Source: a virus. Taken from it: a stretch of 42,702 bases of DNA. The position numbers were made by a program, and so were the translations under genes. This document shows, piece by piece, positions 14,807-25,683 of this stretch (positions are counted from its first letter, which is position 1; each line of letters starts with the position of its first letter). Location: IMG/VR virus record IMGVR_UViG_3300015158_000019, positions 1 through 42,702 of that record. The stretch is one strand, 5' to 3'. Below the pieces are notes generated by a model. That model saw only the letters and a program-made list of their open reading frames with translations. It had not been told where the DNA came from and searched no databases.

Positions 14807-15379
14807 ATGAGAAAACCAAGATCGGATTCCAAGCTGGACGCCCTGGATCAGGACCAGCAGCGGCAGCTTTGCGAATGGCTGCTCACGCCTGGTCTCAGTT
14901 ACGAGAGCATCAAGGAGCTCGTGTTCGAAAAATTCAAAACGTCCACTTCGGGTTCAGCGCTTACCTCCTTCTATCAATCGTATGTGGGTGCCTATGTCTT
15001 GGAGCGGCGCCGGCGAGCGGTCGGGCTAGCCCAGGAAGTGGGCGTCGAGTTGAAGCGCCAGCCGGGCCAGTTCAGCCAGGCGACGATCGATGCGCTGGAG
15101 CAGAAAGCTTTCGAGCTGGCCCAGAATCCGATGGTCGATCCGAAGGAAGTGAAAGCGATTTTTTCGCTGGTCCTGAAAGCGCGCGACCAATCGCTGCAGC
15201 GCGACAAATTCGAGATCGAAACGTGCGAGCGTTTCCTCACCTGGTCGAAAGACAAACGCGCGAAGGAGATCGCCGCGGCGCCGATCAGCAACGCGGAGAA
15301 AATCGCGCAGCTCCGCGAGGAATTCTTCAAGGACGTGGACGCGCTCCAGGCGAGCGGGGAAGTCGTGATTCCGAAATGA
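14807..15379 (+). CDS. terS: Terminase small subunit (Mu gp27/DUF3486 type)
   Basis: A 190-residue protein. Residues 8-60 form a helix-turn-helix region (SKLDALDQDQQRQLCEWLLT, then SYESIKELVFEKF), followed by helices through residue 185, as in DUF3486 proteins next to gp28-type terminases. The small subunit recognises DNA for packaging. An ATG at 14800 overlaps the previous stop but opens a different frame; 14807 is used. The stop is ATGA-coupled to the large subunit. Confidence 0.78.
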   Translation: MRKPRSDSKLDALDQDQQRQLCEWLLTPGLSYESIKELVFEKFKTSTSGSALTSFYQSYVGAYVLERRRRAVGLAQEVGVELKRQPGQFSQATIDALEQKAFELAQNPMVDPKEVKAIFSLVLKARDQSLQRDKFEIETCERFLTWSKDKRAKEIAAAPISNAEKIAQLREEFFKDVDALQASGEVVIPK

Positions 15380-17164: not shown

Positions 17165-18904
17165 ATGGCCCGCAAGCGTATCAACGGCCATGCCGGCGCG
17201 AAAACGGGCGCCGCGACGCTCGAAATCCCGACCTCTGACCGCCGACCTGTGACCTCTACGCCAATCGGCGGCGGGTTCGATGCCGACGTTACCCAGGCGC
17301 AGACAAATTCGAACATCGAACTCTTCAGTCCCGAGCAGCTCGAGATGCTCAGTTTTCGCCGGTTCAACCCGTTTGCGAATTTCAACGCGGCCACGCTCGC
17401 GAACGCGCTCGACAGTTACCTCGGCGGCTATCTCGTGCCCGCCGCCCGTCTCTGGGAACGCCTCGCGAAACAGCAGAAGACGATCCGCAACGTTAAGGCG
17501 AAACGCGAAGAAGCCGTCGCGCTCCGGCCGCGCGTCGTCGAGCGCACCGACGACTCTCCGATGGCTTACGACCAGGCCTTTGTCCTGGAACACTTTTACG
17601 CGAACTGCCGCGCCGGCCACGCGCTGAACCGCAACGTCCGCGGCGGATTCTCGAAGATCGCCATGCAGATGATGGAAGCGAAAAGCTTCGGCACGGCCGC
17701 GCATCATCTCATCTGGAATCCCGACAGCTCGCGCCTGATCACGCTGCCGAGCGGCGCAAAGGTCCCGAGCCTCACGGCGAAGTTTGAATACGTGCCGATG
17801 GAATTCTTCGAGAGCCGCACGGGCGAGCTCCGGTTCCTGGGCATGTCGCAGGCTTACTCGGGCGAGGCGCTCGAGGAATCAGCCTGGCTGATCACGAGCG
17901 AGGAATCGCCGCTCATGTTCGCGGCTTCCGTCCTGGCCTATTACGACAAGCTCGCCACGAGCGACATGATCAATTTCTCGGAGAAATTCGGGACGCCCGG
18001 CCTCGTGGTCCACACCACCGCTCAGCGCGGCACGCCGGAGGGCGAATCAGCCGTAGCGCTCACGCGATCGCTCGGCTCGAACTACCGCGGCACGCAGTTC
18101 GGGGCACCCGAGAACAAGGTCGAGATCGTCTGGCCGAGCGGCGGAACCACGGGCACGTCGCTGCCCATGCACACCATTATGGAGGAGGTGAAGCGCGATC
18201 TCGCTTCGCTGTTTCTCGGAAGCGATCTCAGCTCGCAATCGCGCGGCGGCACGGAGAAAAGTGTCGGCGCCAGCTTGCAGCAGGAAGGCGAAGAACGGCG
18301 GGAGCGGGCGGATTGCGCGTGGATCTCGGAGACGCTCAATGCCGGCATCGATGTCACCGTGCTGCGCTGGTATTTCGGCGATGCGCCGGTCCTGGCGCGT
18401 GTCTCGATCGACGCGCCGAAGAACGAGGACCGCACCATCCTGGCGAACCTGGTCGGCGAAATGGTCGCCCTCGGCGCGAAAGTTCCGCAAGAGCCGGTGA
18501 TGAAACGGCTCAACGTGCCGCTCGCGAAAGACACTGAAAAGCTCGTCTTCACCGCGCCCGCCGTGGCCGAACCGTCCGTCCCTGGCGGCGCCATGATCGC
18601 CACGAATGTCAGTCCGAGTGGGGATCAGGATCTCGAGCGCTTCCTCGGGCCGCTCCGCGATGATTATCTACGTGCGTTGGCAAACGACCTGCAGCCGCTC
18701 CGCTCGGCGATGGAAGGTGTCCTCGCGGATGAGCAACCCGGTATCGCGTTCAATTCCAAGATCGCCTGGCTGCAATCGCAGCTCCCGTCGCTGCTGAAGG
18801 AAATCAACGCGTCACCGAAATCCGCCTACGCGCTCGCGGCCATTCTCAAAACCTCGTTCGAGCAGGGCTACACGCAGGCCGCAGATCAAAGACAAGCCGC
18901 ATGA
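17165..18904 (+). CDS. Portal protein (Mu gp29-like, DUF935)
   Basis: A 579-residue protein with the gp29/DUF935 signatures: EQLEMLSFRRFNPFANFN, RVVERTDDSPMAYDQAFVLE, then SEKFGTPGLVVHTTAQRGTP and LFLGSDLSSQSRGGTEKSVG. The portal forms the dodecameric vertex through which DNA enters and to which the tail connects. The N-terminal residues 20-30 (TSDRRPVTSTP) are read from a CTTCTGAC-type repeat at 17229-17257. The C-terminus overlaps the protease gene by ATGA. Length fits the family. Confidence 0.87.
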   Translation: MARKRINGHAGAKTGAATLEIPTSDRRPVTSTPIGGGFDADVTQAQTNSNIELFSPEQLEMLSFRRFNPFANFNAATLANALDSYLGGYLVPAARLWERLAKQQKTIRNVKAKREEAVALRPRVVERTDDSPMAYDQAFVLEHFYANCRAGHALNRNVRGGFSKIAMQMMEAKSFGTAAHHLIWNPDSSRLITLPSGAKVPSLTAKFEYVPMEFFESRTGELRFLGMSQAYSGEALEESAWLITSEESPLMFAASVLAYYDKLATSDMINFSEKFGTPGLVVHTTAQRGTPEGESAVALTRSLGSNYRGTQFGAPENKVEIVWPSGGTTGTSLPMHTIMEEVKRDLASLFLGSDLSSQSRGGTEKSVGASLQQEGEERRERADCAWISETLNAGIDVTVLRWYFGDAPVLARVSIDAPKNEDRTILANLVGEMVALGAKVPQEPVMKRLNVPLAKDTEKLVFTAPAVAEPSVPGGAMIATNVSPSGDQDLERFLGPLRDDYLRALANDLQPLRSAMEGVLADEQPGIAFNSKIAWLQSQLPSLLKEINASPKSAYALAAILKTSFEQGYTQAADQRQAA

Positions 18905-20184
18905 AAAAATTCATCAACTCTCTCTTCCCACCGTCGCGCCTTCTCGCCATCAACGAAGCTGTCGGCGCAGCTTGTTCCGCTGTTTCCGATCGCTGTTTCG
19001 CTTACGCGCTGGCCACCAACATCGCGCCCATGCCACGTGAAGGGGATTGGATGCCGATGCCGGAATATGGCGAGGTCGACTATTGGACCAAGGAAAACGG
19101 CGTCGCGAAAAAGTATGTGCAGCGCTTCACGCCCGAATTGGCGCGCAAGATGAAGCTGCGACTGCAGGCGCAGTGCATGAGGGAAGGTGAGGATTTCCGC
19201 GGCTTGCCAATTTACAAAGGTCATCCTCCAGCGAATCCCGACCGCTGGTCCGATGAGACTCGCCTGGGCAATGTGCTCGACATTGATCCGCACCCTGATC
19301 GTGCCCGCGTGAAGGTCGCCTTGAATGATCTGGGGCGAAAAAACCAGCTAGAAGGCTACTGGGTCTATCCCTCGCCAGGTTGGAATTACAGCGAGGTCGA
19401 AGCGCAACGCACCGGCCTCATCCTTCCAGATGAACTTCATCACATCGGCATGACGAACATGCCGCGCATGGCTTCCGCGAAGCCGTGGACAAACGTCGAC
19501 GAAAACCCAAAACAACCCGCTGGAGACCAGCACATCAAACCCATGAAAAAACTATTGACCAGCCTCCTCGGGTTACCCGAGGAGGCGAACGACGATGCGA
19601 TAAATGCCGCGCACGCGCAGGCGCTCGCACACAACGCCGCCCCGGTGGAAGTACCGGCCGGCGATAAGAAAATTAAAATCGTGATCGCGGGTGCGAACCA
19701 CGCCGAAGCCGTCACGGCCGTTAACGCACTCGCCACGAACGTGGCCACGGCTGCCACCGAATTGGAAACCGCGCGCTCTCTCGCGACGAACGCCGCCGCG
19801 GAAGCGACAAAGTTCAAGAAGCTCGCAATCAACGCGCACATCGATCGTGCGATCGACAAGGGCCTCATCACCGCCGCGGAAAAACCGCAGTGGGGCACGG
19901 ACTTCGAAGCCGACTTCGCCGCCGCGCTCGTGAAGTTGAACGCGAAGAAAACCGCGCTCAACACGAGAGAGCTCGATCCGCTCAAGCCGGTTAATGACTC
20001 CGATCTCTCCACGCCGCGCGGCCGGCAGCTCGCCTTCAATGTGCGCGTTGATGAGATCGTCGCTGCCGGCCGCGAGGACAATCCGAGATTTTCCATCGAC
20101 GACGCGATCCAAAAGATGCGCACCAACCCGGCAGACGTCGCGCTGCTCAAGGCGATGGAACCGACCGCGGCCGCCGCCGCGTAA
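18901..20184 (+). CDS. Mu gpI-like head protease and scaffold
   Basis: A 427-residue protein directly after the portal. Residues 40-215 match a Mu gpI-type protease domain (GLPIYKGHPPANPDRW, LEGYWVYPSPGWNYSEVEAQ, GMTNMPRMASAKPW). Residues 216-427 are helical and Ala/Lys-rich as in a scaffold. An internal ATG (19543, residue 215) begins MKKLLTSLLGLPEEANDD and could give a separate 213-residue scaffold, the gpZ arrangement. The motif L-A-x-N recurs at 15-18, 37-40, 242-245, 277-280, 294-297, 308-311 and 377-380, a candidate self-cleavage signal. The N-terminal 40 residues are hydrophobic and look like a propeptide. Catalytic residues were not pinned down. Confidence 0.8.
   Translation: MKKFINSLFPPSRLLAINEAVGAACSAVSDRCFAYALATNIAPMPREGDWMPMPEYGEVDYWTKENGVAKKYVQRFTPELARKMKLRLQAQCMREGEDFRGLPIYKGHPPANPDRWSDETRLGNVLDIDPHPDRARVKVALNDLGRKNQLEGYWVYPSPGWNYSEVEAQRTGLILPDELHHIGMTNMPRMASAKPWTNVDENPKQPAGDQHIKPMKKLLTSLLGLPEEANDDAINAAHAQALAHNAAPVEVPAGDKKIKIVIAGANHAEAVTAVNALATNVATAATELETARSLATNAAAEATKFKKLAINAHIDRAIDKGLITAAEKPQWGTDFEADFAAALVKLNAKKTALNTRELDPLKPVNDSDLSTPRGRQLAFNVRVDEIVAAGREDNPRFSIDDAIQKMRTNPADVALLKAMEPTAAAAA
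19543..20184 (+). CDS. Nested scaffold start within the protease gene
   Basis: An in-frame ATG at 19543 would yield a 213-residue scaffold only. A GGAG lies about 20 bases upstream, further than ideal. Mu and lambda produce scaffolds from nested starts in protease genes, so this is expected but not proven. The product contains five of the seven L-A-x-N motifs. Confidence 0.45.
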   Translation: MKKLLTSLLGLPEEANDDAINAAHAQALAHNAAPVEVPAGDKKIKIVIAGANHAEAVTAVNALATNVATAATELETARSLATNAAAEATKFKKLAINAHIDRAIDKGLITAAEKPQWGTDFEADFAAALVKLNAKKTALNTRELDPLKPVNDSDLSTPRGRQLAFNVRVDEIVAAGREDNPRFSIDDAIQKMRTNPADVALLKAMEPTAAAAA

Positions 20185-20186
20185 GC

Positions 20187-20216
20187 ACCAAATCCCAAGC
20201 ACCAAAAACCAAGCAA
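20187..20216. repeat. CCAAGCACCAAA repeat in intergenic gap
   Basis: GCACCAAATCCCAAGCACC and AAAACCAAGCAAT are complementary-strand members of the CTTGGTGCTTGGAGC family seen at 2666 and 4371. They fill most of the 49-bp gap between the scaffold stop and the decoration precursor start. Confidence 0.6.
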
Positions 20217-20233
20217 TACACCAAATCAAAACG

Positions 20234-21496
20234 ATGAAACGAATCACATTACTAATCGGTCTCGCCTGCGCGGCGATCGCCGATTCCCTTCGCGGTCGCG
20301 GGCTCGCGGTCAACGAAGCTCCCGTCGCAGCCATCCCAGGCACGCTCCCACCGGAGACGCCTGTCGTTACGGTCGGTCTTCCCAAGACTCTCGATCCGGA
20401 CAAGATCCTCGCCCGCAAGAAAGCGCTCATGGCCGCAGGCACGGAACCGCTCCTTGCCGAGAAGCTCGCCATTGATGCCGAGCAGCAGCAATACCTGCGC
20501 GACCATCAGCTCAGCGTTTCCGCCACCGTCGAGGAGCGCCCGATCACCGAGAAAGTCCTCGTGATCAAGACGCATGCGGACGGTGAACCTGAAAAGGTGG
20601 ATCTCGAATCGCTGACGATCGCGGGACTCACGGATCTCGCCGCAGCCAACAATTACGACCTGAAGGGCGCGACGAAAAAGGCCGACATCATCGCTGCGAT
20701 CACCGCGGCCGCGAAGTCGCTGATCATTGCGTTCGTCTGCGCGTTGTTCTTCGGCACCACGGCGCCGGCGCAAGCCAGTGTCGCTCCGATCACAACGTCA
20801 GCGGTTGTAGCCGGGATCGCTGATCCCGGTCAGCCTAACGAACCGTTGCCGTCCGCGCTCCTCGCGTTCTTGCAGCTGGATGTCGAACAATGGACCGGTT
20901 TCATTTGCGCGCTCGCGCTCGCCGTTGCGGCTTGCGCCTGGCTCGCGAAAAACCGCGTGCACCGTCGCCGGGAAGTGGGCAGTCGATTCAGACGAGCGTT
21001 GTTCCGGATCGGAATGCTGTTCGCGGTTCTCGCGAATCGCTTCCGTGGCCGCGCGCTCGCCACGAACGTCGTCTTCACTCCCCAGCAAACCAGTCACGGG
21101 ACGGTGAGTCTCGATGCTACCGCGGTGATCGCGACGAAAAACTACGTCGTCTGCCGCGGCGCGGATGACCGCCACTTCAAGGTAGGAACTCTCGTCACAG
21201 ACGTGCCGCTAGGCGTGCTTCTGAATGACGAAGTGACCTCGGGCGAAGTGGACGTGATGCCGAAGAGTATCGCGCTGTTCGGGCTGTATCCCGAATCGCT
21301 CCCAGCCGTCGCGGCAGCCGCGATCGCGGTGGACGTCGAGCTCGTGATCGATCTCGCCACTCCGGGCCGCGTCAAGGCGCTGCCCGGAGCGTCCGGCACT
21401 TATCTCGTCATCGGTCGCAACCGTTTCACGGTGGCAGCCGCGGGCGATCCCGTCTCCATCGCGCACTGCGTGCCGCGCACCGTCGTCGTGCCGTAA
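20234..21496 (+). CDS. Decoration-protein precursor, apparently a polyprotein
   Basis: A 420-residue protein in three parts. Residues 1-160 start with a signal-like helix (MKRITLLIGLACAAIADSLR) and include a HeH/SAP-like motif (LTIAGLTDLAAANNYDLKGA then TKKADIIAAI, 128-157). Residues 161-245 hold a second signal-like stretch (SLIIAFVCALFFGTTAPAQA) and a transmembrane helix (222-236). Residues 279-420 match a phage head decoration domain of the DUF2190 kind (KNYVVCRGADDRHFKVGTLV, then VPLGVLLNDEVTSGEV). L-A-x-N motifs occur at 24-27, 237-240 and 275-278, the last exactly at the start of the decoration domain. It lies between scaffold and capsid genes, as decoration genes do. Confidence 0.68.
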   Translation: MKRITLLIGLACAAIADSLRGRGLAVNEAPVAAIPGTLPPETPVVTVGLPKTLDPDKILARKKALMAAGTEPLLAEKLAIDAEQQQYLRDHQLSVSATVEERPITEKVLVIKTHADGEPEKVDLESLTIAGLTDLAAANNYDLKGATKKADIIAAITAAAKSLIIAFVCALFFGTTAPAQASVAPITTSAVVAGIADPGQPNEPLPSALLAFLQLDVEQWTGFICALALAVAACAWLAKNRVHRRREVGSRFRRALFRIGMLFAVLANRFRGRALATNVVFTPQQTSHGTVSLDATAVIATKNYVVCRGADDRHFKVGTLVTDVPLGVLLNDEVTSGEVDVMPKSIALFGLYPESLPAVAAAAIAVDVELVIDLATPGRVKALPGASGTYLVIGRNRFTVAAAGDPVSIAHCVPRTVVVP

Positions 21497-21534
21497 CCGC
21501 CTAACGAGTCTCAAATCAACCAAGGAAAATTATC

Positions 21535-22581
21535 ATGATCCCAAATCTAAGACCCGGCCCGCAAGCGCTGGCCTTCAACGTCCTCGCGACCATGCTGGGC
21601 ATCGCCCCGCAAGAGTCGTTCGAGATCCACAAGGCGGACGACAACTTCACTCCCGGTCGCGTCCTCGCCTTCAACGCCTCGCAGTTTTCGGTCAACGCCC
21701 CGAGCGAGTTCCTCACGAACTACGCGGTCCGTTATTCCGATCCGCTGCAGCAGGCACTCCAGAGTTTGCGTGAGCAGCTCGCCCCGGAAGTGATGAGCAA
21801 TAACTCCGCCTTCGTGCAATACGCGGTCTACGGGTTCACCGACGCGTTCCTCGCGATGGATAACCCGCTCGATGTCCGCAGGGGCGTCGGCGCGGATTTC
21901 ACCACGGTCGGGAACACGAGCAAGAACCTCGCGACCCAGAAGATGCCGGAGATCGGCCTCGCGATCGAAGTGGATGAAGAGGAGGAGCTCCTCGATGCCG
22001 ACTGGCAGCAACGCAAAGTGGCGTTCCTGCTCGGTATCCTCGACCGCACGGAATTGCGCCAGGCTCTCGCGCTCGCCGTGGCCGGCGCCACGAACGTCGC
22101 GAAGACCTGGGACGCGTCCGCGGGCAAGGACCCGGACCAGGACATCGCCACCGAGATCAACGCGATGCAGATCCCGCCCAGCAACATCTGGGTCGGGCCG
22201 GGCGCCTGGATCAAGCGCATGCTCGCGCATCGCGCCCAGAACACGGCCGGTGGTTTCGCCAGCGCGTCGCTCACTCCGGAAGGTGTGGGCGGGCTGTTGA
22301 ACGCGAGCGTGGAGATCCCGCGCAACCGCTATGCGAGCGGCGCCGGCGTCACCTCGCAGATCATGGGCTCGATCGTGCTGATGTTCTCCGCCATGTCGGG
22401 GATGAGCCGCGACGACTTCAGCAACCTGAAGACGTTCGTCGCGCCCGCGCGCAATGGGCAGCGCCGCGCGGTGTGGGTTCGCCAGGTGGGAGACAAACGC
22501 TGGCGCATCGCGGTGAGCACCGGCAAACGCCTGGTCGCTCTCACCAGCGCCATCGGCCTCGAGACGATGACGATCTCGTAA
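21535..22581 (+). CDS. Major capsid protein
   Basis: A 348-residue protein in the position of the major capsid gene after the decoration precursor. The sequence fits an HK97-fold subunit: a helical N-terminal region (LQQALQSLREQLAPEVMSNN), a long acidic region (IGLAIEVDEEEELLDADWQQ then RKVAFLLGIL), and a C-terminal domain with NIWVGPGAWIKRMLAHRAQN. AAGGAAAA before the ATG is a good Shine-Dalgarno. L-A-x-N occurs at 12-15 and 44-47, near the N-terminus where maturation cleavage would fall. A terminator follows the stop. Confidence 0.78.
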   Translation: MIPNLRPGPQALAFNVLATMLGIAPQESFEIHKADDNFTPGRVLAFNASQFSVNAPSEFLTNYAVRYSDPLQQALQSLREQLAPEVMSNNSAFVQYAVYGFTDAFLAMDNPLDVRRGVGADFTTVGNTSKNLATQKMPEIGLAIEVDEEEELLDADWQQRKVAFLLGILDRTELRQALALAVAGATNVAKTWDASAGKDPDQDIATEINAMQIPPSNIWVGPGAWIKRMLAHRAQNTAGGFASASLTPEGVGGLLNASVEIPRNRYASGAGVTSQIMGSIVLMFSAMSGMSRDDFSNLKTFVAPARNGQRRAVWVRQVGDKRWRIAVSTGKRLVALTSAIGLETMTIS

Positions 22582-22617: not shown

Positions 22618-22652
22618 AAACACCCGCTGGTGAGCAATCGCCAGCGGGTTTC
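22618..22652 (+). terminator. Rho-independent terminator after the capsid gene
   Basis: ACCCGCTGG (22622-22630) pairs with CCAGCGGGT (22641-22649), extended by GAAA/TTTC, around a 10-base loop, with a short T run after it. It lies 37 bp past the capsid stop. Partial termination here is common in phages. An octamer copy lies between stop and hairpin (22602-22609); the rest of the 125-bp gap is unremarkable. Confidence 0.75.
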
Positions 22653-22706
22653 GGAGTCGCAAGGCGGGACCGCTCGCCACAAAAACCAAACCGAAAGGAC
22701 ACATCT

Positions 22707-22835
22707 ATGGCCGAAGAAAAAAAGGAAGAGACCAAGACCGAAACGAAGACTGAGGGAGCTCCTCAGAATCCTCCGGGTCCCGGCGAAACGAAAACGGAGA
22801 CCAAGACCGAAACGAAAACGGAGACCAAGGAATAG
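22707..22835 (+). CDS. 42-residue (KTET)n repeat protein
   Basis: A lysine/glutamate/threonine repeat protein, MAEEKKEETKTETKTEG, then a short Pro/Gly spacer and four further TKTE units. It is entirely low complexity and should be disordered or a single helix. AAAGGA 10 bases before the ATG gives a Shine-Dalgarno. It stands between two hairpins after the capsid gene. Small repeat proteins of this kind occur beside phage capsid genes; no function is known to me. Confidence 0.6.
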   Translation: MAEEKKEETKTETKTEGAPQNPPGPGETKTETKTETKTETKE

Positions 22836-22859
22836 GTCGTTAGGTTCGATGATTCAAGC

Positions 22860-22887
22860 CCGGTCCCGACTGCGTGTTCGGGACCGG
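22860..22887 (+). terminator. Strong hairpin, possible attenuator
   Basis: CCGGTCCCGA (22860-22869) and TCGGGACCGG (22878-22887) form a perfect 10-bp stem with an 8-base loop. There is no T run behind it, so it may be an attenuator or mRNA-stabilising hairpin rather than a full terminator. Confidence 0.5.
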
Positions 22888-22911
22888 CATTGAGTGATTG
22901 AGGTAAAACTT

Positions 22912-23355
22912 ATGACGAGAAAATTTCTAACGACTCTGTTTGTGCTGGCGTTCGCCGGCAGCGCATTCGGCGGCGCGCTGAGTCTATCCATTGCTCCGGA
23001 TACGACGGACAACACCACGCTGCTCTCGCAACACCAGGCGCTGTCGCTTTGGAACATCGAGCACAATGGGACGCGGAACGTCATCAGCTCCTCGACGCCG
23101 TCGCATGCGGATATTACGACGACGAGCGGCACTGCGCTGGCGGCGAACACGAGTCGCGGCGATGCGGTCCTGACAAACTACGGGGCGGTGGGCTGCTTCC
23201 TCGCGCGCGGCGCGACGGCCGTGGTGGGACAGGGAATCTATCTGGCGCCGAACGGCGGCTACTACAACATCGACGCGAACAATCTTTATCGCGGCGTGAT
23301 CAGCGCGATCACGGCCAGCGGCACAACCACGCTGTCGATCAGCGAAGGGCAATAG
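22912..23355 (+). CDS. Signal-peptide protein of the capsid cassette
   Basis: A 147-residue protein. GAGG precedes the ATG at 22912 by about 9 bases. Residues 1-20 (MTRKFLTTLFVLAFAGSAFG) are a clear Sec signal peptide. The rest is beta-rich, small-residue sequence (DTTDNTTLLSQHQALSLWNI, then GIYLAPNGGYYNIDANNLYR, GVISAITASGTTTLSI), the composition of a head fibre or decoration protein. L-A-x-N appears twice (LAAN, LAPN). TAG is followed at once by the next ATG (TAGATG). Whether it is exported or processed in the head is unknown. Confidence 0.65.
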   Translation: MTRKFLTTLFVLAFAGSAFGGALSLSIAPDTTDNTTLLSQHQALSLWNIEHNGTRNVISSSTPSHADITTTSGTALAANTSRGDAVLTNYGAVGCFLARGATAVVGQGIYLAPNGGYYNIDANNLYRGVISAITASGTTTLSISEGQ

Positions 23356-24387
23356 ATGAAACAGCTGAATTGTATTCTCGTTTTACTGGTGACGTGCGCC
23401 AGCGTCCTCGCGGCCGGCGTCACGAATCCGGTTAGTTCCACCGCGGCCGTTGATGACATCGTTACCACCGCCGCGAATCGGACCTCCCAAAGTTTGGTCT
23501 ATTACAATCCGTTAGCGAAGAGCGTCACTTATCCGGCTCTCACAACTATCGGTCACGTTAGAATCGGTGATAACAATTTCGGTCCGCTAACGCAGTTGAA
23601 GTCCGTTTCGTTTCCGGAACTCCAGTGGATCGACGGCCAGAATAATAAGACCTTCAGCATTTTCGGCGTGCCGAATCTCGAAAGCTTGTCGCTCCCGAAG
23701 CTCACGAGTGGCGTGCTGGCCGTTCACAACACAAAGCTTTCTTCGCTAGCGCTGCCGCTGAAAACGGCGGGCGACATCGACGTTGCCGACAACCCTCTCT
23801 TAGCAAGCCTGATTTTGCCGGCGTCGGGCATAGCTGGGAAAATCCGGGTTTCGCGCACCGCCCTCACCAGTTTGACGCTACACGGCGTCACCGGGCTAAT
23901 CGCGGATGCGTGTTCCCATCTCACTTCACTCAGCGACTCGGATGTCGGCCGTGTTCTGGTGATCCAAAACACACCCGTTACTGGATCGTTCACGGCGGGC
24001 ATGTCTTCTAACCCCGTCGTTAAAGTCAGGAACACCAATCTTAACTCTATAACGCTCAATGGAATCGCTTACTTCTATTTCGGAAACGCTCCCTCCGATG
24101 TCTTGGAAGTTGCCAACAATCCGAGCCTTACCTCAATCGCCTTCGGAGGTGGGGAGCCGCTTTCGTTCGAATTTTACCAGGTAGCGACTTTTAATTTCTC
24201 TTCGAACGCGCTGACTGCGACCTGCGTGAATAACCTCCTCGTGCTGCTAAACGGGTTGACCACCACTGGCGCGGGCAGCGCGGTTACGGTGAATGTGAGC
24301 GGTGGCACAAATGCCGCGCCGACCGGAGCCGGCCTAACGGCCAAGGCCGCTATGATCGCGAAGGGTTACACGGTCCTGACGAACTGA
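23356..24387 (+). CDS. Leucine-rich-repeat beta-solenoid with signal peptide
   Basis: A 343-residue protein. Residues 1-20 (MKQLNCILVLLVTCASVLAA) are a Sec signal. About residues 50-285 contain irregular repeats of L-x-x-L-x-L-P-x-L type (LKSVSFPELQWIDG, LESLSLPKLTSGVL, LSSLALPLKTAGDI, LTSLTLHGVTGLI), a leucine-rich or receptor L-domain-like solenoid. The C-terminus (VNNLLVLLNGL, GGTNAAPTGAGLTAKAAMIA, KGYTVLTN) is a cap I associate with phage and verrucomicrobial surface repeat proteins. Local GC is much lower than around it (about 40% at 24001-24060), suggesting acquisition. Possible head fibre or cell-surface factor. Confidence 0.72.
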   Translation: MKQLNCILVLLVTCASVLAAGVTNPVSSTAAVDDIVTTAANRTSQSLVYYNPLAKSVTYPALTTIGHVRIGDNNFGPLTQLKSVSFPELQWIDGQNNKTFSIFGVPNLESLSLPKLTSGVLAVHNTKLSSLALPLKTAGDIDVADNPLLASLILPASGIAGKIRVSRTALTSLTLHGVTGLIADACSHLTSLSDSDVGRVLVIQNTPVTGSFTAGMSSNPVVKVRNTNLNSITLNGIAYFYFGNAPSDVLEVANNPSLTSIAFGGGEPLSFEFYQVATFNFSSNALTATCVNNLLVLLNGLTTTGAGSAVTVNVSGGTNAAPTGAGLTAKAAMIAKGYTVLTN

Positions 24388-24391
24388 CCCG

Positions 24392-24856
24392 ATGGCTACC
24401 AACTGGATCACCATCACAGCGGACAACCTGAACGAGTATCAGGCTGGAAAGCTCGTTGCTGCGGCGCGCACCAAGGCGCTCGCCGCCAGCCAGACCGATC
24501 CATTTCTCGCGGTCATGCCGGACGTGATCAACCGGATGCGCGATGACATTCGCGGCTGCAAGTCGAACCAGGTCAGCGCGACTCCATTGACTGTTCCTCC
24601 AGGGCTGCGCGGCGAGGCGGTCCTGCTCACGATCGAAGCGATGCAACCGCGGCTGCCAGGCATCAAGATCGATGACGACCTGCGCACACTGATTGATGAC
24701 GCAAAAGCGCGCATGAAGCGGATTTCGAAATGCGAGATCCCGATCGAGATCCCGAACGACCCGCTCACGACGCCTGATGTGCAACTCGGTGGCATGACCG
24801 AAACCGTCCAGGAAGGAAACAGCGGCAACAGCCGCGAGGAGCTGAGCCGGCTATGA
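24392..24856 (+). CDS. Head-tail adaptor, Mu gp36-like
   Basis: A 154-residue helical protein beginning MATNWITITADNLNEYQAGK. The NWITIT start, four-helix pattern (DPFLAVMPDVINRMRDDIRG, LRGEAVLLTIEAMQPRL) and a disordered tail match the small gp36/DUF1320-type proteins encoded after the capsid gene in Mu-like phages, which bridge head and tail. Its stop overlaps the minor head protein start (ATGA at 24853). Confidence 0.7.
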   Translation: MATNWITITADNLNEYQAGKLVAAARTKALAASQTDPFLAVMPDVINRMRDDIRGCKSNQVSATPLTVPPGLRGEAVLLTIEAMQPRLPGIKIDDDLRTLIDDAKARMKRISKCEIPIEIPNDPLTTPDVQLGGMTETVQEGNSGNSREELSRL

Positions 24857-25683
24857 CGCGTTTTTCTCGCATCATGTTTTCCGCGGCCGTGGCGACGAAC
24901 ATCGCGTTCTCGCGGCCGGTCCAGTTTTCACAGGCCGCGCAAGCGCGCTCTGTGCAATCGATTCTGCCCACGGAACTCTCGAGTGCGCAGCTCGAGGAGA
25001 TCAACCCGGCCGTCATGGAGCGCGCGCTGGTCTCGGCCCGCGTTCACAGTGCCGAGGTGCTGCAGGACCTCGACGATATCCTGAGCCGCTACCTCGGCGG
25101 TGAGATCAACAGCGCCACGGCCGTCGCGGAGCTGCGGCAATCGATGCGCGAAAACGGCCTCTGGGCCGCGCCTGGTGATGAAGGCACGCTGAAAGATTTC
25201 CAGGGCAACGAGCGGTTGAATCTCATCATCCGGATGAACGCCGGCTTTGCGAACAGCTACGGCGATTGGATCTACAATCAGCAGGCGCCAGTCCTCGATG
25301 AATGGCCCGCGCAGGAACTCTTTCGCGGAGTCGCCGTGAAGGTGCCGCGCGATTGGGTCACGCGGTGGAACGACGCGGCCGACGCCACCGGCACCAAGGT
25401 CGCGGGCTTCGTCGCGCTGCGGAACACCCCGATCTGGACCGCGATCTCGCGTTTTGGCGTTCCTTATCCGCCTTACGATTTTAATTCCGGCATGCGCACG
25501 CGCCTGGTCGACCGGACGCGCGCGATGTCGTTAGGCCTGATCGATCGCGAGACCCGGATCGAGCCGCAGGACCGCGGTTTCAATGACGACCTTCGTTTCA
25601 CTCCGGATGTGCGCGCGGCCGCGCTGCGCCAGGCTCTCCTGGAAGAAGGCTACAAATTCGAAGGAGACGTTCTCACGTTATGA
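24853..25683 (+). CDS. Minor head protein (Mu gpF/gp30-like morphogenesis)
   Basis: A 276-residue protein. The line SILPTELSSAQLEEINPAVM, ERALVSARVHSAEVLQDLDD, EGTLKDFQGNERLNLIIRMN, VLDEWPAQELFRGVAVKVPR and ISRFGVPYPPYDFNSGMRTR matches a family of phage head morphogenesis proteins of Mu-like elements. It lies after rather than before the capsid gene, unlike Mu F. The first 20 residues (MTRFSRIMFSAAVATNIAFS) are hydrophobic with V-A-T-N, a variant of the motif seen in the scaffold. Coupled on both sides by ATGA. Confidence 0.8.
   Translation: MTRFSRIMFSAAVATNIAFSRPVQFSQAAQARSVQSILPTELSSAQLEEINPAVMERALVSARVHSAEVLQDLDDILSRYLGGEINSATAVAELRQSMRENGLWAAPGDEGTLKDFQGNERLNLIIRMNAGFANSYGDWIYNQQAPVLDEWPAQELFRGVAVKVPRDWVTRWNDAADATGTKVAGFVALRNTPIWTAISRFGVPYPPYDFNSGMRTRLVDRTRAMSLGLIDRETRIEPQDRGFNDDLRFTPDVRAAALRQALLEEGYKFEGDVLTL

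Follow-up and report, generated by a model that had tools for sequence, protein, structure and literature searches.

Why should one short motif recur in several head proteins of a phage? The stretch of DNA analysed here (the window, 42,702 nucleotides) is a virus record in IMG/VR and carries a head module of the Mu type, in which the genes for the portal (PF06074), protease/scaffold (PF10123), decoration precursor, capsid and minor head protein follow in this order. A first-pass annotation had noted the tetrapeptide L-A-x-N in the scaffold, decoration and capsid proteins, and had proposed it as a shared processing site. We conclude that the motif very probably marks the substrates of the Mu gpI-type serine head protease that the phage itself encodes; this enzyme would cut after Asn (P1) with Leu-Ala preferred at P4-P3.

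Motif counts and the comparison set

Seven copies of LAxN occur in the 427-aa protease/scaffold protein (residues 15, 37, 242, 277, 294, 308 and 377), where shuffled versions of this protein give an expectation of 0.35 (p <= 5e-5). The decoration precursor (420 aa) has three, LAVN at 20303-20314, LAKN at 20942-20953 and LATN at 21056-21067 (0.18 expected, p 3.5e-4), the capsid protein has two, at residues 12-15 and 44-47 (0.23 expected, p 0.02), and the minor head protein carries VATN at residues 13-16. Our recount thus reproduced the 7, 3 and 2 copies and the VATN reported by the first-pass annotation. Its claim of absence elsewhere was borne out as well, with no LAxN in the terminase large subunit, the portal, the tape measure or the tail proteins of 701, 1093 and 1213 aa, as was its remark on one to two copies in each of two small proteins: one lies in a 190-aa ORF before the terminase large subunit (14807-15379) and two lie in a 153-aa ORF (22894-23355). 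The copies in these two ORFs were not counted as sites, there being no homologue for comparison.

The codons vary among the copies (CTC/CTG, GCC/GCG/GCA, AAC/AAT), so the repeat is one at the protein level, with selection on the protein, and a DNA-level repeat or recombination motif was rejected. Chance together with common descent would be another explanation, LAxN arising from alanine-rich composition and its positions being inherited. The scaffold is indeed Ala-rich, the loose measure [LAFIV]xN is hardly in excess in the window's scaffold (8 seen vs 6.8 expected) and close relatives share positions through descent; however, the LAxN form is the significant one, at about 20 times expectation in the same-protein shuffles.

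The window was compared with about 50 related Mu-like head modules from Verrucomicrobiota and viral contigs; these loci carry L-numbers (L001, L002 and so on). L001 and L002 are two close relatives, with capsid identity to the window of 79-85%, and keep nearly all sites. Beyond these, minor-head alignments recruited about 55 further loci, some on viral contigs and others on genome contigs of Opitutaceae, other Verrucomicrobiota, Kiritimatiellae and Lentisphaerae; a first scan of genome contigs with the capsid alignment gave no match. Judged from its relatives, the phage of the window probably has its host group in the Verrucomicrobiota. In the collections searched, no isolated relative with published virion proteins was found via the capsid, portal or window protease, and the isolate search returned just distant minor-head or protease matches (Akkermansia phages and other Mu-likes).

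The protease/scaffold protein

The protease-scaffold fusion is located between the portal and capsid genes, and its C-terminal half is helical. It matches PF10123 with 51.2 bits against a cut-off of 25.2, and the L051 protease matches with 97.4 bits. Its features are as follows, a slash marking the predicted cut.

18901-20184, plus strand: fusion of a Mu gpI-type head protease and scaffold, 427 aa (PF10123; PHROG head maturation protease)
18943-18954, plus strand: LAIN/E, first candidate site, in the N-terminal propeptide (MAIN/E in L001, LAFN/S nearby in L002)
19009-19020, plus strand: LATN/I, candidate site ahead of the catalytic domain, present also in L001 and L002 and modelled as a low-confidence linker
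19021-19494, plus strand: predicted mature protease core, residues 41-198, 158 aa, 18.3 kDa
19483-19494, plus strand: PWTN/V, predicted protease/scaffold release site; Asn198 invariant in 26/26 proteases
19624-19635, plus strand: LAHN/A, candidate scaffold site, aligned with LAVN in L001 and L002
19729-19740, plus strand: LATN/V, candidate scaffold site, kept in L001 and L002
19780-19791, plus strand: LATN/A, candidate scaffold site, less conserved (TATN in L001, TATT in L002)
19822-19833, plus strand: LAIN/A, candidate scaffold site, kept in L001 and L002
20029-20040, plus strand: LAFN/V, candidate scaffold site, kept in L001 and L002

Across 26 proteases, His108, Ser158 and Asn198 are invariant together with Met1 and Gly57, and no other residues are; His108 and Ser158 are the putative catalytic residues. 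Asn198 closes the catalytic domain, within PWTN/V in the window and within LAN/E, GLN/E or ITN/R in relatives. In 25/26 cases the residue that follows it (P1') is one of the three most frequent P1' residues in that phage's scaffold, and the Asn198 site agrees with the scaffold sites in the Arg or non-Arg class of P1' in all 26. This most conserved site, PWTN at residues 195-198, does not fit LAxN and was missed by the first-pass annotation. At the other edge, the protease N-termini of most relatives end in a site right before the domain (AIN/D, LAN/E, ILN/R). The structural model has a confident fold at about residues 50-185 and low-confidence linkers at 33-47 and 206-213. On this basis the protease appears to cut itself out on both sides. 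VALN at residue 139 was rejected as a site, since it sits in a strand of the catalytic domain.

Several scaffold copies (277, 294, 308 and 377) lie within predicted helices, and repeated docking motifs would be plausible in a scaffold. LAxN could on these grounds be a binding peptide: short helical stretches in scaffold and precursors would attach to the capsid shell or to one another, and nothing would be cut there. This would leave unexplained, however, why Asn stands at both edges of the protease domain, and the structural proteins offer a second difficulty.

Ends of the capsid, minor head and decoration proteins

The capsid gene has the following features.

21535-22581, plus strand: major capsid protein precursor, 348 aa, HK97 fold (model pLDDT 78, Foldseek)
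21568-21579, plus strand: LAFN/V, first candidate capsid propeptide site (MAFN in L001, LAFN in L002)
21664-21675, plus strand: LAFN/A, predicted maturation site, Asn47, 13 residues ahead of the LTNYA anchor
21676-22578, plus strand: predicted mature capsid protein, 301 aa, 32.5 kDa, N-terminus ASQFSVN

Among 26 distinct capsids with an extension and an Asn site, 25 have exactly the same spacing, the Asn lying 13 residues ahead of the conserved LTNYA anchor; the remaining one, L039, has a single extra residue inserted and its Asn at 14. Among 11 capsids that lack the extension, 8 have their Met 12 residues before the anchor, which is the P1' position, and the other 3 have it within 3 residues. 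In the L001 capsid 30 extra residues are inserted ahead of the second site, but LAVN is immediately followed by AAQF all the same, just as LAFN is by ASQF in the window. L043 and L055 are exceptions, with a membrane-like capsid extension and no P1 Asn (L043:7524-8609, L055:7687-8874), and the capsids of L045 and L053, whose starts are uncertain, may also have an extension without it. Two tandem capsid-protein genes were observed at L037:5774-7792, with a CAAN/ESRF site in both.

Downstream of the window's capsid gene, a small protein of low complexity, in which Thr, Glu and Lys abound (TETKTETK), is encoded at 22630-22893. Between the capsid and head-completion genes, at 22894-24387, are two ORFs with Sec-signal-like starts (153 aa, and 343 aa with leucine-rich repeats), which look like inserted cargo because the same interval in L001 and L002 is just about 300 bases long.

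The minor head protein has a shorter extension.

24853-25683, plus strand: precursor of the minor head protein, 276 aa (assigned through homologue L011, which has a PHROG minor head protein match)
24889-24900, plus strand: VATN/I, predicted cleavage site, invariant in the window, L001 and L002
24901-25680, plus strand: predicted mature minor head protein, 260 aa, 29.1 kDa, N-terminus IAFSRPVQF

The 16-residue VATN propeptide is present only in the window, L001 and L002. L011 begins MNFRAPVPF and L012 begins MLFRTPLPF, where the window would read IAFSRPVQF after the cut, and at least 30 minor head homologues have a possible start codon exactly at the P1' residue. The first-pass annotation had suggested a comparison with homologous head proteins, and its outcome agrees with the proposal, as extension-free capsid and minor head homologues begin where the motif would cut. 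That these homologues start right after the Asn is the second fact that a binding peptide leaves unexplained, and we consider that explanation improbable.

The decoration precursor has the longest extension of the three.

20234-21496, plus strand: decoration protein precursor, 420 aa, ATG at 20234; homologues start alike
20303-20314, plus strand: LAVN/E, first candidate site, invariant in L001 and L002
21056-21067, plus strand: LATN/V, candidate site at the start of the decoration domain; Asn in 25/25 precursors with a propeptide
21068-21493, plus strand: predicted mature decoration (cement) protein, 142 aa, 14.7 kDa, N-terminus VVFTPQQ

The earlier observation that one site falls exactly at the start of the decoration domain holds beyond the window: in 25/25 decoration precursors the propeptide ends in Asn, usually before VAEG/IAEG, IGEG or TLPG. 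Between 20 and 299 aa long, these propeptides carry a net positive charge (+2 to +10), and 18/25 contain a membrane-like segment; the mature domains are mostly 131-142 residues long. For PF09956 (Phage_cement_2), L023 scores above the cut-off (36.4 vs 24) and L030, L051 and L038 below it; the window's domain has no Pfam match. LAKN (20942-20953) is probably not a site, as it adjoins a membrane-like segment and there is no Asn there in L001. The window's decoration propeptide (20234-21067) is unusually long at 278 aa, with two membrane-like segments and an Arg-rich stretch. A stretch of the decoration propeptide matches PHROG 3281 (endonuclease VII), possibly a SAP/HeH-like motif.

Motif dialects, known systems and a proposed maturation model

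Among the relatives LAxN proved to be the local dialect of the window group. Relatives use LxN, AxN or FxN, and the classes are L-A-x-N (window group), x-A-x-N (CAAN/E), x-L-x-N (ALAN/E, SLAN/D) and x-F-x-N (YFAN/E). Homologues with an extension keep the Asn even where neighbouring motif residues have changed, and the whole of LAxN was given up as the signal once relatives were compared, in favour of hydrophobic/small-x-Asn as the candidate general form, with Asn as the presumed P1. The protein ends and the conserved Asn therefore support a shared processing site, but what is common is the Asn and not the whole LAxN. Retention of Asn without its neighbours in relatives at 25-40% identity argues against chance and descent as well, as do the strong over-representation of NE or NR pairs in most scaffolds and the match of natural and predicted N-termini for two proteins; we regard that account as most unlikely.

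The residue at P3 changes jointly. The commonest scaffold P3 equals the capsid P3 in 20/22 phages and the decoration P3 in 18/22, and capsid and decoration P3 agree in 22/25. In a permutation this agreement has p <= 5e-5, a value that overstates the case because the protease tree has about three switches, one of them on well-supported branches, and the co-variation is thus consistent rather than independent evidence. Since scaffold, decoration and capsid proteins alter the motif in step from phage to phage, the preference of the protease should be readable from the sequence. A separate clade has xxN/R scaffolds, with 4-7 NR seen against about 0.5-1.4 expected; most capsids and all decoration proteins found in this clade are without a propeptide. 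The L043 and L055 capsids described above are exceptions to this pattern.

Asn at P1 is also the residue of nodavirus-type autocleavage in capsid maturation, and the chain might break at Asn spontaneously via a succinimide, with the protease playing no part. Against this, P1' is often Glu, Asp, Val, Ile or Arg, the P3/P4 residues are specific and depend on the phage, the signal recurs in scaffold and linkers and not in one folded active site, and the His and Ser of the protease encoded in these modules are invariant. A spontaneous break is very improbable. Cleavage by the head protease is preferred because no rival explains why natural N-termini coincide with P1'. From the positions of the sites, their conservation and their joint change we infer that the protease very likely cuts itself, the scaffold and three structural proteins after Asn.

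Several known systems resemble this arrangement. Mu protein I (protease)/Z (scaffold), PF10123, is a homologous fusion in the same neighbourhood of Mu-type portal, protease-scaffold and capsid genes; Mu gpI differs in that its repeats read A-L-S-A and its release position lacks Asn, and the Mu capsid protein has no removed propeptide, its start being confirmed by sequencing according to its record. Herpesvirus assemblin likewise joins protease and scaffold in one chain, with a release site where the protease domain ends, but P1 is Ala and there are one release and one maturation site, not many. T4 gp21 fragments the scaffold and trims the N-terminal propeptides of the capsid and internal proteins at one short motif, and the T4 internal proteins carry targeting sequences (PMC5694885). 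The window phage likewise has one motif in the scaffold and several N-terminal propeptides. The T4 scaffold is a separate protein, however, P1 in T4 is Glu (L/I-x-E) in contrast to the predicted Asn at all window-type sites, and no sequence-level relationship was detected. The proteases of T4, phiKZ and SPN3US, the best mapped among phage head proteases, recognise motifs ending in Glu (PMC5694885); SPN3US gp245 and phiKZ-type proteases also use one short motif (AxE) in several head precursors and undergo autocleavage (PMC5694885, PMC10052503), but they differ in P1 Glu, in belonging to giant myoviruses and in their other substrates. In the literature searched, no report of a head protease cutting after Asn was found, and the JBD30 and XM1 papers give no Mu-type protease sites.

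In Foldseek searches the capsid model matched 3bjq (E 2.7e-12), then the capsid proteins of HFTV1, P23-45 and lambda, and its N-terminus is of low confidence. The top match of the protease model was 5jbl (T4 gp21) at a non-significant E of 0.14, with a herpesvirus protease likewise weak. An HK97-fold capsid with such an N-terminus, together with these weak fold matches, points to T4-style maturation.

Considering these results, we propose a plausible model, in which the order of the cuts and the role of the propeptides in assembly are our reading of the sequences. The protease-scaffold, capsid, decoration and minor head precursors would co-assemble into a procapsid through their N-terminal extensions, scaffold and propeptides keeping it together. 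The protease would then free its own core by cuts after N40 and N198 and fragment the scaffold at five or more sites; it would also remove propeptides from the capsid after N15 and N47, from the decoration protein after LAVN and LATN, and from the minor head protein after N16. The fragments would exit, and the shell would expand for DNA packaging.

Scaffold repeats elsewhere differ, reading ALSA in Mu (L068), A-A-L-T in D3112 (L069), A-L-N/R in Shewanella MuM16-2 (L109) and A-L-Q in RC1 (L110), and Verrucomicrobiota prophages of other branches have N/R, N/S or Ala/Ser-type release sites. These differences are a lead that P1 may change from one member of the Mu gpI family to another and that the scaffold repeats may reveal it. 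Tentatively, and with somewhat more doubt than conviction, we suggest that Mu gpI-type head proteases are a family whose P1/P3/P1' code drifts (Asn/Glu, Asn/Ala and Asn/Arg in the phages compared, and perhaps Ser, Thr or Gln in Mu, D3112 and RC1), being written as scaffold repeats and copied into every structural substrate, and that basic propeptides, many of them membrane-like, may tether decoration precursors to the membrane or target them, with the protease releasing them into the head. If cleavage after Asn is correct, it would provide site-level maturation maps for a large uncultured phage group of Verrucomicrobiota and precise predictions for mass spectrometry, with a decoration protein made as a precursor. 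It would also offer natural specificity switches (N/E, N/A and N/R; P3 = Leu, Ala or Phe), in which a protease and four substrates changing together could be studied.
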